Assembly: GCF_030161575.1 (NCBI RefSeq)
Contig: NZ_BSUL01000001.1
Location: 1,054,001 to 1,118,000 of the forward strand
Source of the DNA: Arenivirga flava
GTDB lineage: Bacteria > Actinomycetota > Actinomycetes > Actinomycetales > Microbacteriaceae
Reading direction: 5' to 3'
DNA: 64,000 bases
How positions within the stretch are numbered: position 1 is the first letter of the stretch; each line of letters starts with the position of its first letter. The position numbers were made by a program, and so were the translations under genes. The notes under the pieces are model-generated. The model ran no database searches. It worked only from the letters and a program-made list of their open reading frames with translations, and was not told the DNA's origin. Shown piece by piece: positions 32,783-52,637 of the stretch.

Positions 32783-33559
32783 CTAGGCCGCTTCCTTCTG
32801 CTGCTTGGGCTGCGAGCTCGGCGGGATCATGGCGCGCAGCCGCTCACCCAGCACGCGCGGCTGGCTGCCGGCCTGCACGGCGAGCATGCCCTCGATGACC
32901 AGGCCGAGGCGCTGCTCCTCGAGCTCGGCGAGGCGGCCGAGCTTGCTGCCGATCGGCGCCCAGAAGAAGTTGGCGCTGAGCAGGCCCCAGAGGGTGGCCA
33001 CGAACGCCGCGGCGATCATGTGGCCGAGCTCGTCGGGCTTGTCGAGGTTCTCGAGCACGTGGGTGAGCGAGACCACCGTGCCGACGATGCCGATGGTGGG
33101 CGCGTAGCCGGCCATCGACATGAAGAACTTGCCCGACTTCTTCTGCTCCTGCACCGTCGAGTCGACCGTGTCCTCGAGGATGATGCGCAGCTCCTCGGCG
33201 TCGGTGCCGTCGGCGATGTTCTGCAGGGCGTCGCGGATGAGCGGATCGTCGACCTCCGCCGCCTCCTGCTCGAGGGCGAGCAGACCGTCCCGGCGGGCGC
33301 GCTCGGCGTAGCCGACGATCGCCTCGATGGTCGCGGCCGGCGGGTTCACCTTGCCGACGAACGCCTTCGGCACGGCGAACAGGGCGCGCTTCGCGTCGCC
33401 GACGGTGCCGCTCGCGATGGTGACGGCGATGGTGGCGCCGAAGACCAGGATCATGGGCGCCGGCAGGAAGAGCGCGCCGACGTGCGCGCCCTCGAGGGTG
33501 ATCATCGCGTACAGGGCGCCCAGCGCCAGCAGCATGCCGATGATGGTGGAGGGGCTCAT
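32783..33559 (-). CDS. motA: Flagellar stator protein MotA
   Basis: 258 aa, four membrane helices. PTIGIVGTVVSLTHVLENLDKPDELGHMIAAAFVATLWGL is the conserved MotA helix 3-4 block, and the cytoplasmic loop holds the charged rotor-facing residues (RRDGLLALEQEAAEVDDPLI). ATGA overlap with the flbD stop. Confidence 0.97.
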   Translation of the reverse strand: MSPSTIIGMLLALGALYAMITLEGAHVGALFLPAPMILVFGATIAVTIASGTVGDAKRALFAVPKAFVGKVNPPAATIEAIVGYAERARRDGLLALEQEAAEVDDPLIRDALQNIADGTDAEELRIILEDTVDSTVQEQKKSGKFFMSMAGYAPTIGIVGTVVSLTHVLENLDKPDELGHMIAAAFVATLWGLLSANFFWAPIGSKLGRLAELEEQRLGLVIEGMLAVQAGSQPRVLGERLRAMIPPSSQPKQQKEAA

Positions 33560-33810
33560 CGCTCGTCCTCCGGCAGGGGGCGGACCGCGGTCAGCGGGGC
33601 GGGCGCCGACTCCTCAATGCGACGGGCCATCGCGATGACGCGGGCGCGGAAGGCGACGATCTCGTCGATCACCTCGTCGAGCGTCTCCGTGACGACGTAG
33701 CTGACGCCGTCGACCATCACGAGGGTCGTGTCCGGGCTCGCGTGCAAGCGCGCGACGAGGTCCGGGTTCACCGCGAAGCGGCTGCCGTTCAGGCGCGTGA
33801 CCATGATCAT
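33556..33810 (-). CDS. flbD: Flagellar FlbD family protein
   Basis: 84-aa FlbD-type protein (MIMVTRLNGSRFAVNPDLVARLHASPDTTLVMVDGVSYVV), a small conserved protein encoded before motA in many Gram-positives; role unclear. An upstream ATG at 33822 exists, but GGAG sits 6 nt before 33810 and homologues begin MI-VTRLNG. Confidence 0.93.
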   Translation of the reverse strand: MIMVTRLNGSRFAVNPDLVARLHASPDTTLVMVDGVSYVVTETLDEVIDEIVAFRARVIAMARRIEESAPAPLTAVRPLPEDER

Positions 33811-33854
33811 CCTGATCTCCAAGCTCGCCCGCCATCCATAGCAGGCACTGCGTA

Positions 33855-47242: not shown

Positions 47243-48139
47243 TCAGCCGAGCAGCGAGAGCACGCTCTGCGGGAGCGAGTTCGCCTGCGCGAGCATCGAG
47301 GTGCCCGCCTGCTGCAGGATGTTCGAACGGGTGAAGTTCGCCATCTCCGCCGCCATGTCGGTGTCGCGGATGCGCGACTCCGACGCCGACAGGTTCTCCT
47401 TCGAGATGTTGATCGAGTTGATCGCGGTCTCGAAGCGGTTCTGCTTTGCGCCGAGCTCAGAACGGGCACCGGCCACGTCGGTGATGGCCTTGTCGAGGTT
47501 GACGATCGACATCTGAGCCGACTCGTGGCTGGTGAACTGCAAACCGGTGCCGGCTGCAGCGCCGGTACCGTCAGGCCCCGCGAGCGTCGCCGCGGCCGTA
47601 CCGACAGCGAGGTTCGTCGTAGCCAGGGCAACGATGTCGAACTTGTCATCGCTGAGACCGACGCTGATCGAGTTCGACGAACCTGAGTTGGCGCCGACCT
47701 GGAAGGTGAGGTCGTCCCCGCCCGCGAGGAGCTTGGTGCCGTTGAAGTTCGTCGAGTTGCCGATACGAGCGATCTCGGCAACCAGCTCGGTGGCCTCCGT
47801 CGTGATGGCCGCACGCGAGTCGGCGTTGTTCGAGTCGTTACCCGCCTGCACCGCCAGGTCGCGCAGACGCTGCAGGTTCGAGTGGACCTCGCCCAGCGCG
47901 CCTTCCGCGGTCTGCACGACCGAGATGCCGTCCTGCGCGTTGCGAGCGGCGACGTTGAGGCCGCCGATCTGGGCGCGCAGGCCCTCCGAGATGGACAGGC
48001 CGGCTGCGTCGTCAGCGGCCTTGTTGATGCGCAGACCGCTCGAGAGCTTCTCGAGCGAGCCGGTCAGCGAGTTCTGCGTGCTGGAGAGGTTCCGGTACGC
48101 AGCCATGGCGCTGACGTTGGTGTTGATCTGAAAACCCAT
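47243..48139 (-). CDS. fliC: Flagellin
   Basis: 298-aa flagellin of the short type: conserved N-terminal D0/D1 (MGFQINTNVSAMAAYRNLSSTQNSL, SSGLRINKAADDAAGLSIS) and C-terminal D1/D0 (AEMANFTRSNILQQAGTSMLAQANSLPQSVLSLLG) with a small variable core. ATG at 48139 has GGAGGA 4-5 nt upstream. Translation is probably gated by CsrA at the leader hairpin and Shine-Dalgarno, with FliW as release factor. Confidence 0.97.
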   Translation of the reverse strand: MGFQINTNVSAMAAYRNLSSTQNSLTGSLEKLSSGLRINKAADDAAGLSISEGLRAQIGGLNVAARNAQDGISVVQTAEGALGEVHSNLQRLRDLAVQAGNDSNNADSRAAITTEATELVAEIARIGNSTNFNGTKLLAGGDDLTFQVGANSGSSNSISVGLSDDKFDIVALATTNLAVGTAAATLAGPDGTGAAAGTGLQFTSHESAQMSIVNLDKAITDVAGARSELGAKQNRFETAINSINISKENLSASESRIRDTDMAAEMANFTRSNILQQAGTSMLAQANSLPQSVLSLLG

Positions 48140-48143
48140 GATG

Positions 48144-48189
48144 TCCTCCGTGGAATTGGGTGGTGAAGCGCCACCCCGTCCGTGGGGTG
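48144..48189 (-). promoter_or_regulatory. fliC leader with candidate paired CsrA sites
   Basis: On the mRNA, CACCCC-ACGGAC-GGGGTG (48189-48172) is a 6-bp stem with ACGGA in the loop. About 20 nt downstream ACGGAGGA (48151-48144) merges an ANGGA core with the Shine-Dalgarno. Bacillus subtilis hag has the same arrangement: an upstream loop site plus a site on the ribosome binding site, both bound by one CsrA dimer. Confidence 0.7.
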
Positions 48190-48199
48190 ACAAGGGGCA

Positions 48200-48228
48200 C
48201 TGTCGGCCCCTCGACCGGCTGCGTTAGC
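48200..48228 (-). promoter_or_regulatory. FliA-type promoter of fliC
   Basis: Minus strand GCTAAC (48228-48223), 15-bp spacer, GCCGACAG (48207-48200) then TGCC. The predicted start site near 48193 puts the whole CsrA hairpin inside a leader of about 54 nt. Confidence 0.83.
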
Positions 48229-48246: not shown

Positions 48247-49122
48247 TCACGAGGCGATCGCGGCCCGCGCGCGCCGCGCCTCGACCGCATCCGCCATCAT
48301 CAGGTCCGCGACCTGCGAGCGGTACGCCGCCCGGCGCGCCTGCACCGCCGCGGTCGCCGTCTCGACGACCGGAGCGGGGTCCGCCGCGAGCAGATCGCCG
48401 ATGGACTCGCGCATGAGCTTCATCGCCGCCGTGCGCTGCTGCGACACCGCGGAGTGGGTGACACCGAGCTCGTCGGCGATCTCGCCGACCGTGCGGCCGC
48501 CGAAGTAGAGCTGCTCGACGATGGCGCGCATCCGCTCGGGCAGTGCGGCGACGGCGCTGCGCAGGGTGCGGTCGCGCTCGGCGTCCGCCGCCTGGTCCTC
48601 GGGCGTCGCCTGCTCGGCGGCGAGGCCGTTCTCGACGATCTCGTCGATGACGCCGACGGTGCGGCCGGCGTCGGCCATCGCCTCGCGCACGCCGGCGCGG
48701 TCGGTGCCCATGGCCGTGGCAATCTCGTCGATCGTGGCGGCGCGGCCCAGGCGCGCGGCGAGCGTCTCCTGCACCTCGAGCGTCGCCTTGATGCGCTTGC
48801 GCGTGCCGCGGCTGGCCCAGTCGGCCGAGCGCATGTCGTCGGCGAAGGCGCCCATGATGCGGCGCCGCGCGTAGGCGCCGAACGGCACCCCGAGCGCGGG
48901 GTCGAAGGCGTCGGCCGCCTGCACCAGCGCGAGCGCGCCGGCGCTGGCCAGATCGTCGCGCGACAGGTGCGTGGCGCGGGCGCAGACCTCGGCGACGAGG
49001 TAGCCGACGAGCGGCAGGTTGTCGACGACGAGAGCGTTCCGATGCGCTCGCGAGGTCGTGGTGGTGTTGTCGTTCCGAGTCGCGTCCGTGCTTCCCGAAG
49101 CAGCGTCATGAGTCCCGATCAT
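48247..49122 (-). CDS. fliA: Flagellar sigma factor FliA (sigma-28 family)
   Basis: 291 aa. Sigma-70 region 2 (LSRDDLASAGALALVQAADAFDPALGVPFGAYARRRIMGAFADDMR), region 3 and region 4 (LPERMRAIVEQLYFGGRTVGEIADELGVTHSAVSQQR) are clear. Size and sequence resemble FliA/WhiG. It stands next to fliC and to five matching promoters. No FlgM anti-sigma gene is visible in the window. ATG at 49122 follows GAGGGGG. Confidence 0.93.
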   Translation of the reverse strand: MIGTHDAASGSTDATRNDNTTTTSRAHRNALVVDNLPLVGYLVAEVCARATHLSRDDLASAGALALVQAADAFDPALGVPFGAYARRRIMGAFADDMRSADWASRGTRKRIKATLEVQETLAARLGRAATIDEIATAMGTDRAGVREAMADAGRTVGVIDEIVENGLAAEQATPEDQAADAERDRTLRSAVAALPERMRAIVEQLYFGGRTVGEIADELGVTHSAVSQQRTAAMKLMRESIGDLLAADPAPVVETATAAVQARRAAYRSQVADLMMADAVEARRARAAIAS

Positions 49123-51357: not shown

Positions 51358-52254
51358 ATGGACCGCGTGACGAATCAGACCATGGCCGCGACCGCGCAGC
51401 GCAACCTGCAGGCGAGCCTGCAGCAGATGGCGCGGCTGCAGGAGCAGGGCTCCTCGCAGAAGCGCATCCTCACGCCGAGCGACGACCCGCGCGGCACCGC
51501 CGACGTGATCGCCGTCCGCTCCCAGCAGCGCGCCGCCGAGCAGCACGGGCGCAACATCGACAACGGCACCGGCTGGCTCACCACCGTCGACAGCGCACTC
51601 GGCAACGCCACGGACATCCTGCAGAGCGCGCTGCAGCGCACCCTGCAGGGCGCGAACGACGGAGCGCTCGGTCAGGAGGCGAAGAACGCGCTCGCCATCG
51701 AGATCGACGGCCTGCGCGACGCGCTGCTCAAGGAGGCGAACGCCACGTACCTGGGCCGCAGCGTCTTCGCCGGCAGCTCGGATGCGGGACGCGCGTTCTC
51801 GGACGCGGGCGCGGAGCCCCCGTACGCGTGGACCGGCACGCCCGGCCGCACCGTGGACCGGAAGGTCGCCGAGGGCGTCACCGTGCGCGTCGACGCCGAC
51901 GGCGCCGCCGCCTTCGGGGAGGGCGAGGCCTCGGTCTTCGCGCTGCTCGACGGCATCGCCGCGGACCTGCGCGCCGGCACCCCGGTCTCGGGCCGCATCG
52001 ACGCGGTGCGCGACGCCCTCGACGGCGTCATCGCCGCCCACGCCACGGTCGGCGCGCAGCACGGCCAGCTGCAGCGGGCCGAGTCCGTGCTGAAGACCAC
52101 CGAGGTGGATCTCGAAGCCCAACGATCGAAAGCGGAGGACATCGACTTGGCCAAGGTCATCCTCGACCTCAACGTGCAGAGCACCGTCTACCAGGCGGCG
52201 CTCAACGTCACGGCTCGCGTCCTGCAGCCCAGTCTGATGGACTTCCTGCGATGA
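51358..52254 (+). CDS. flgL: Flagellar hook-associated protein FlgL
   Basis: 298 aa HAP3 (VTNQTMAATAQRNLQASLQQMARLQEQGSSQKRILTPSDDPRGTADVIAVRSQQ). Flagellin-like D0/D1 ends with KAEDIDLAKVILDLNVQSTVYQAALNVTARVLQPSLMDFL. Overlaps fliW by ATGA. Confidence 0.97.
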   Translation: MDRVTNQTMAATAQRNLQASLQQMARLQEQGSSQKRILTPSDDPRGTADVIAVRSQQRAAEQHGRNIDNGTGWLTTVDSALGNATDILQSALQRTLQGANDGALGQEAKNALAIEIDGLRDALLKEANATYLGRSVFAGSSDAGRAFSDAGAEPPYAWTGTPGRTVDRKVAEGVTVRVDADGAAAFGEGEASVFALLDGIAADLRAGTPVSGRIDAVRDALDGVIAAHATVGAQHGQLQRAESVLKTTEVDLEAQRSKAEDIDLAKVILDLNVQSTVYQAALNVTARVLQPSLMDFLR

Positions 52255-52637
52255 GCGCCCCGATCACCTTCGTCACGCCTCCGCTCGGTCTCGGCGACGC
52301 GCGCGAGTTCACGCTGCGCGGCATCGACGGCGCCGACGGCCTCTTCGCCCTCGAGGCCGCCGACGGCGCCCGCCTGTTCGTGCTCGATGCGGCGCGCTAC
52401 GTGCCGGAGTACTCCCCCGAGATCAACGACGCGCAGGCCGGCCTCATCGGCCTCGAGCGTGCCGAGGACGGGCTCGCCCTCGTCGTCGCCAACCCCGCGG
52501 AGGGCGGCACGACGGTGAATCTGCTCGCCCCGATCGTGCTCAACCTCACGAACGGCCTCGCGGCGCAGGTGATCCTCGACGACCAGGATCAGCCGCTGCA
52601 GCACCGGCTCACGACGACGCAGCGCGCGGCGAGCTGA
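52251..52637 (+). CDS. fliW: Flagellar assembly factor FliW
   Basis: 128 aa. FliW fold motifs: RLFVLDAARYVPEYSPEIND, ALVVANPAEGGTTVNLLAPIVLN and GLAAQVILDDQDQPLQHRL. FliW binds either flagellin or CsrA and so relieves CsrA repression when flagellin is depleted. Both partners are encoded in this window. Confidence 0.95.
   Translation: MSAPITFVTPPLGLGDAREFTLRGIDGADGLFALEAADGARLFVLDAARYVPEYSPEINDAQAGLIGLERAEDGLALVVANPAEGGTTVNLLAPIVLNLTNGLAAQVILDDQDQPLQHRLTTTQRAAS

Follow-up and report, generated by a model that had tools for sequence, protein, structure and literature searches.

A candidate CsrA–FliW control site in the flagellin leader of Arenivirga flava and its actinobacterial relatives

The leader of the flagellin gene fliC in Arenivirga flava is most likely the RNA control site of a feedback switch formed by FliC, FliW and CsrA. 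It carries two GGA sites of the kind that CsrA binds, one in the loop of a hairpin and one merged with the Shine-Dalgarno sequence. Both sites are conserved, the hairpin stem covaries in the manner of an RNA, fliC is inherited together with csrA and fliW, the CsrA residues concerned are intact, and the flagellin leaders of Bacillota have a matching layout. Since this layout is kept in nearly all flagellated relatives checked, Actinobacteria very probably also control the making of flagellin through a CsrA feedback switch. That CsrA binds and represses here, that one dimer bridges both sites and that FliW acts as antagonist we infer from the precedents in Bacillus and Campylobacter.

RESULTS

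Anatomy of the fliC leader

The window, i.e. the whole 64-kb stretch of DNA analysed, carries fliC on its minus strand (47243..48139; flagellin, 298 aa; ATG at 48139). Directly upstream on the same strand is fliA (48247..49122), which encodes a FliA/WhiG-type sigma factor (TIGR02479 E 1.8e-38, below the curated cut-off). Direct reading of the window located all the minus-strand leader elements at the coordinates given here. A FliA (sigma-28)-type promoter is predicted for fliC at 48227-48200 (CTAACG at 48227-48222, 14 nt, then GCCGACAG at 48207-48200); it is one of three promoters of this type found by pattern in the window. CTAACG/GCCGATAG elements occupy the matching position in nearly all Microbacteriaceae fliC leaders, and elements of the same type also precede flbD.

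Between this promoter and fliC lies hairpin 1 (48192-48169, minus strand), the candidate CsrA site 1, with stem TGTCACCCC/GGGGTGGCG and hexaloop ACGGAC at 48183-48178. The earlier note had placed a hairpin with an ACGGA loop at 48189-48172, which is right to the base for the core CACCCC-ACGGAC-GGGGTG; the CACCCC/GGGGTG stem is present as described, but the full stem is longer than the six pairs stated, with TGTCACCCC pairing GGGGTGGCG over 9 bp. The second ACGGA reported there, merged with the Shine-Dalgarno sequence at 48151-48144 (minus strand), is also present (ACGGAGGA) and makes up the candidate CsrA site 2.

Counting ACGGA by itself is uninformative, since the pentamer is depleted in the window (106 occurrences vs 156 expected). 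Hairpins of at least 6 bp with an ANGGA or AGGAN loop number exactly two on both strands of the 64 kb, one before fliC and the other before flbD; on such stems the ACGGA form of the loop occurs only at fliC and the ATGGA form only at flbD. The fold of the fliC leader region beats all but one of 200 shuffles (z −2.5). Folded from the predicted transcription start, the pairs of hairpin 1 have a probability of ∼0.95; for a transcript begun 2–4 nt earlier the best fold is a different one, without hairpin 1. Rfam covariance models gave no match to the leader at E-values up to 1. With a model of the leader itself, fliC was the sole strong match in its own genome (E 2e-12; next match 0.97), the top match in each of 13 flagellated relatives was always a fliC leader, and the matches in seven non-flagellated genomes were no better than E 0.004.

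Conservation and covariation of hairpin 1

We searched 300 Microbacteriaceae genomes for fliC and found it in 91. Hairpin 1 is present in 94 of the 95 leaders of these genes, with the loops ACGGAT, ATGGAT, ACGGAC, ACGGAA and ATGGAC and with a C-G closing pair in 93 of the 94. An ANGGA in the Shine-Dalgarno zone accompanies the hairpin in 93 of the 94 leaders; the commonest form of this second site is TCACGGAGGA, matching the full [AU]CANGGANG[UA] form, and the spacing between the two GGA sites is mostly 28–32 nt. In about a quarter of the family leaders the third pair from the loop is an A-G, A-A, G-A or C-A mismatch with well-kept pairs on either side; such an internal mismatch may be tolerated or may serve a function.

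The lone family leader without hairpin 1 (L084_2) belongs to a second flagellin paralogue. Another such paralogue, L125_2, likewise has no CsrA-type hairpin, and the sister genes of both retain it; the two genes are possibly flagellins outside the feedback.

In the rest of the class, fliC was found in 45 of 394 genomes searched, and 47 of 50 further leaders have hairpin 1 on very different stems, e.g. GGGGAGCC/GGCTCCCC, CCGCAGC/GCAGCGG and GCGGCTC/GAGCCGC. An ANGGA is found in the Shine-Dalgarno zone of 40 of these 47; several f30 genomes have a Shine-Dalgarno sequence without a good CsrA consensus. The total of 141 leaders with the hairpin out of 145 compares with 2.6% of dinucleotide shuffles and 1.8% of random 100-nt windows from the same loci. 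The CANGGANG loop is found in 138 of the 141, and the pattern A-N-GGA is kept across leaders.

Covariation was counted at eight stem positions in 70 leader pairs that are phylogenetically disjoint on the flagellin tree. Both partners had changed and were still paired at 54 stem positions (against 4–7 in the control with the partner slid by 1–3 bases), while a control with permuted partners gave a mean of 7.4 double changes and a maximum of 14 in 300 permutations. The pair count on the family alignment gave 34 double-changed cells, a count reached in none of 500 shuffles (mean 10.4), and hairpin 1 is the sole helix that RNAalifold predicts from this alignment. The hairpin position in each leader was taken as the best-paired ANGGA; the resulting selection bias is small because most leaders have just one upstream candidate. 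Where a Watson–Crick pair had changed on one side only, the outcome was G-U in 37 cases and A-C in 14 (p 0.0009), a preference that argues for an RNA-type constraint rather than a DNA operator. Stem covariation around an invariant loop, given there as ACGGA, is what the earlier note had proposed to look for in relatives, and the stem does covary strongly around an invariant A-N-GGA loop; loss of the hairpin from relatives that keep csrA and fliW, named there as an outcome that would speak against the idea, is not what we see, the 141 hairpin-bearing leaders of the 145 being from genomes that carry both genes.

Co-inheritance of fliC, csrA and fliW

The single csrA of the genome (23296..23565, minus strand) encodes a protein of 89 aa with a C-terminal extension (PF02599 E 8e-24; the NCBIfam equivalog cut-off is reached) and with R44, V51 and N55 present. 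The fliW gene (52251..52637, plus strand; 128 aa; PF02623 E 2.9e-19) encodes a divergent protein that scores under the NCBIfam cut-offs; its closest solved structure is 5dmb, the FliW of the FliW–CsrA complex. The two genes had been described as lying in one locus with fliC. This holds for fliW, 4 kb from fliC, but csrA is ∼25 kb off, with flagellar genes including flbD and motA in between. Other flagellated genomes of the family have fliW mostly inside an 18-kb locus.

Among the 300 Microbacteriaceae genomes, csrA and fliC occur together in 90 and are both absent from 208; the exceptions are one draft with csrA only (G209) and one 63%-complete draft with fliC only (G299). FliW was found in 40 of 41 tested genomes bearing csrA or fliC, G209 alone being without it, and in none of 39 tested genomes without flagellin. 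In the rest of the class csrA is present in 37 of 39 fliC-bearing genomes; in the two without it (G541 and G645) the matches resemble flagellin only distantly, and for one of them, G645, the region upstream of the flagellin-like gene was read and has no hairpin.

The G209 draft retains csrA (L282) with no detectable fliC or fliW, which reflects either sequence missing from the draft or a leftover from flagella that were lost.

Across 53 aligned CsrA proteins (the Geobacillus CsrA of 5dmb counted) the RNA-binding residue R44 is invariant and N55 is kept in 52, while position 51 varies among V, I, L and M, with V in the window CsrA. V51 and N55 are FliW-binding residues of Campylobacter CsrA, and the change N55D abolishes FliW binding in Bacillus CsrA (PMC7829508).

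Comparison with known flagellin leaders

Control of the B. subtilis hag leader by CsrA and FliW is described in passages of PMC7652899 and PMC8523840 that cite Yakhnin 2007 and Mukherjee 2011. The sites BS1 (A51-A55) and BS2 (C75-G82) of hag (PMC8523840) have the same two-site layout as the fliC leader described here. Both leaders have two GGA sites with the downstream one on the Shine-Dalgarno sequence, both follow a FliA/sigma-D-type promoter, a predicted one in the case of fliC, and both genomes encode fliW and csrA. Among 77 distinct hag-type leaders of Bacillota, 58 passed a hairpin test (first two pairs formed and at least 5 of 8), typically with CCAC-AAGGAU-GUGG, and 75 have an ANGGA at the Shine-Dalgarno sequence, typically TCAAGGAGGA; as in fliC, the upstream GGA of these leaders is in a hexaloop hairpin. 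The letters of stem and loop differ, GNCC-A[C/U]GGA here vs CAC-A[A/U]GGA in Bacillota, as does the spacing of the sites, mostly 28–32 nt here vs 20–26 nt. Unlike in B. subtilis, csrA does not adjoin fliW here, lying ∼25 kb from fliC, and the flbD-motAB leader has a hairpin too. The Bacillus-hag-like reading of the fliC leader, put forward in the earlier note, is well supported by its sequence.

The flaA leader of Campylobacter jejuni forms two stem-loops that each present ANGGA in the loop and of which the second lies at the ribosome site, shows compensatory changes among relatives and is controlled by a CsrA whose antagonist is FliW (PMC4894983). It differs in the length of the leader (45 nt), in the spacing (21 nt) and in that binding and repression, predicted here, are proven there. 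Compared with the ANGGAX hexaloops bound by RsmE in RsmZ and hcnA of Pseudomonas, the fliC loop has the high-affinity form, with A-N-GGA-X set directly on the stem; those are sites in an sRNA and an mRNA of Pseudomonas, and many of the flbD hairpins discussed below have the lower-affinity AGGAX form (PMC4005645).

Two side observations concern single records. The record titled Arthrobacter beigongshangensis REN13 (L231) contains a hag gene and leader of Bacillus type and is probably mislabelled. In genome G193, an ORF of ∼112 aa (L048, 9983-9602, minus strand) has a flagellin-type CsrA leader and only flagellin-like N- and C-terminal pieces; located upstream of four flagellins, each with its own leader, it is a mini or decayed flagellin.

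A possible helix at the fliC start codon

Downstream of hairpin 1, ACCCA (48161-48157, minus strand) may pair with the UGGGU of the AUGGGU start (48138-48134, minus strand). This proposed start-codon helix was assessed by folding, segment swaps, shuffles and pair counts. Folded from the predicted transcription start, its probability is 0.83–0.94. The pairing energy of the segment ahead of the Shine-Dalgarno sequence with the start region is −7.81 in the family vs −6.35 in shuffles (sd 0.20), and −9.17 vs −6.28 (sd 0.36) in the class; in Bacillota leaders pairing with the start region shows no gain over shuffles (−1.45 vs −1.46). Swapping the segments between disjoint relatives with differing start contexts weakened the pairing by a mean of 0.99 kcal/mol (23 pairs, Wilcoxon p 0.029), and GCCA/UGGC, AUCCC/GGGAU and GACUCA/UGAGUC are suggestive compensations. 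The count of longest helices in the family is hardly above chance (4.90 vs 4.71, sd 0.09), and RNAalifold does not predict the helix from the family alignment; because of this omission we treat it as a lead and not as a result. A start-codon helix in Actinobacteria and not in Bacillota has modest support from these comparisons.

The flbD-motA-motB leader as a candidate second target

A weak match of the leader model in genome G006 (E 0.0015) fell on the leader of flbD. In the window, flbD (33556..33810, minus strand; PF06289 E 7.6e-22) is followed by motA (33559-32783) and then a motB-like gene on the same strand, both named by sequence motifs. A FliA-type promoter is predicted for the three genes at 33882-33855 (minus strand; CTAACC ... 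GCCGACAG), and a second CsrA-type hairpin, TGCCTGCT-ATGGAT-GGCGGGCG, lies at 33847-33826 (minus strand) with its loop at 33839-33834. Across the flbD start codon, GATC-AGGAT-GATC (33805..33817, minus strand) is possibly a second GGA site (CAGGAUG), weak when taken alone.

A loose GGA-hairpin test was too permissive for flbD leaders (30% positive in shuffles) and was replaced by a strict one, which demands an ANGGAN hexaloop or AGGAN pentaloop on at least 4 bp. By this test the hairpin is present in 32 of 69 flbD leaders (1.0 expected) and absent from 37, with stems that vary by genus. ANGGA or CAGGAH near the flbD start is found in 27 of the 32 leaders with the hairpin and in 22 of the 37 without it; being common in both, this near-start site is uninformative. 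Many flbD hairpins have an AGGAX pentaloop in which the N is omitted, and since this omission lowers the affinity of RsmE (PMC4005645), the sites in many flbD leaders may bind more weakly than the fliC site. In Campylobacter, motA mRNA co-precipitated with CsrA, 10-fold enriched once and at most 1.8-fold in other experiments (PMC4894983). In the open-licence literature we found no paper that names flbD-motAB of Actinobacteria as a target of CsrA.

The third FliA-type promoter (31853-31826, minus strand; region 31853-31798), before a fliM-like gene, was rejected as a CsrA target. In relatives the GTG start of the fliM-like gene comes no more than ∼15 nt after the −10 element, and its mRNAs therefore look leaderless and offer no hairpin site.

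DISCUSSION

In the switch that we propose, FliA would transcribe an fliC mRNA whose leader holds little beyond hairpin 1 and the Shine-Dalgarno site. One CsrA dimer would hold both the ACGGA hexaloop of hairpin 1 and the Shine-Dalgarno ACGGA ∼30 nt downstream and, placed on both sites, would exclude ribosomes. While flagellin export is under way, free FliW would bind CsrA near N55 and the mRNA would be released; once flagellin backs up, it would sequester FliW and repression would return. Points against this reading are the spacing of mostly 28–32 nt, which exceeds the 18-nt optimum for one CsrA dimer cited in PMC4894983, the different fold of a transcript begun 2–4 nt earlier, and the Shine-Dalgarno sequences of several f30 genomes with their poor CsrA consensus.

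The hairpin might instead have nothing to do with CsrA and merely protect or stabilise an abundant mRNA at its 5′ end, or serve for ribosome standby. Its place at or a few nucleotides from the predicted 5′ end would suit such a role, as would the hairpins that some flbD leaders have at the equivalent place with no GGA in the loop. A stabiliser has no need, however, of an A-N-GGA-N loop that stays constant except at just those positions where CsrA/RsmE tolerates change (PMC4005645), nor does it give a reason for strict co-inheritance with csrA, and we regard it as very unlikely. Another idea, that a transcription factor binds the palindrome as a DNA operator located shortly after the transcription start, draws on the presence of a conserved inverted repeat beside the promoter ahead of two FliA-type transcription units. 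It is hard to reconcile with a stem sequence that drifts freely while the pairing is retained, with the excess of G-U over A-C changes (37 to 14), with the asymmetry of the conserved core ACGGA and with the shared layout that Bacillota build on another stem sequence; we give it hardly any credence.

It is also conceivable that CsrA binds the leader but has its activity set by something other than FliW, be it a different protein, an sRNA or the mRNA. FliW accompanies csrA and fliC throughout and CsrA retains N55 with V, I or L at position 51, and for this reason the variant seems rather improbable to us, even with a divergent window FliW that stays under the NCBIfam cut-offs, a csrA that is not beside fliW (so that the two genes lack the translational coupling that they have in B. 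subtilis, PMC6529632) and the titration of CsrA by flaA mRNA in Campylobacter (PMC4894983). The FliC–FliW–CsrA switch is thus the reading that we retain.

The remark in the earlier note that CsrA–FliW control has little published support in Actinobacteria is borne out for experiments: we found no data on binding of CsrA to the leader, on expression or on mutants from any actinobacterium in the open-licence literature. The idea itself is older. The Kineococcus radiotolerans genome paper of 2008 noted that the ribosome site of the flagellin gene shares 9 of 12 bases with hag BS2 and raised the possibility of control by CsrA (PMC2587704), and Zere 2015 counted Actinobacteria among the phyla that may use FliW (PMC4682653). 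The Kineococcus remark agrees with our reading in placing CsrA on an actinobacterial flagellin gene as on hag; unlike the present analysis it concerned one genome and the Shine-Dalgarno site only, with no hairpin 1, comparative test or FliW (PMC2587704). In a 2023 survey of actinobacterial flagella, CsrA and FliW are merely query proteins (PMC10746217), and a search of the open-licence literature for Microbacterium papers that treat both CsrA and FliW found none. Four things appear unreported in that literature: the covariation across the class, the comparison between phyla, the hairpins before flbD-motAB and the helix that may form at the start codon.

More tentatively, and with somewhat less than even confidence, we suggest that actinobacterial CsrA may be a small switch dedicated to the flagellum, acting in graded fashion on two targets, the high-affinity hexaloop of fliC and the flbD-motA-motB hairpin, often of the weaker AGGAN form, with a start-codon clamp ACCCA/AUGGGU as part of the fliC switch. 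If true, stator supply would be linked to flagellin export through the flbD-motA-motB hairpin. The flbD-motAB hairpins predict a second CsrA target that was not found in the Bacillus literature examined.

CsrA–FliW control of flagellin in Actinobacteria, in 2008 a remark on a single genome and in 2015 a guess from phylogeny, now has a testable RNA element that is found across the class and covaries. With one architecture in two phyla on unrelated stems, the choice between a very old control and repeated convergence becomes directly testable.
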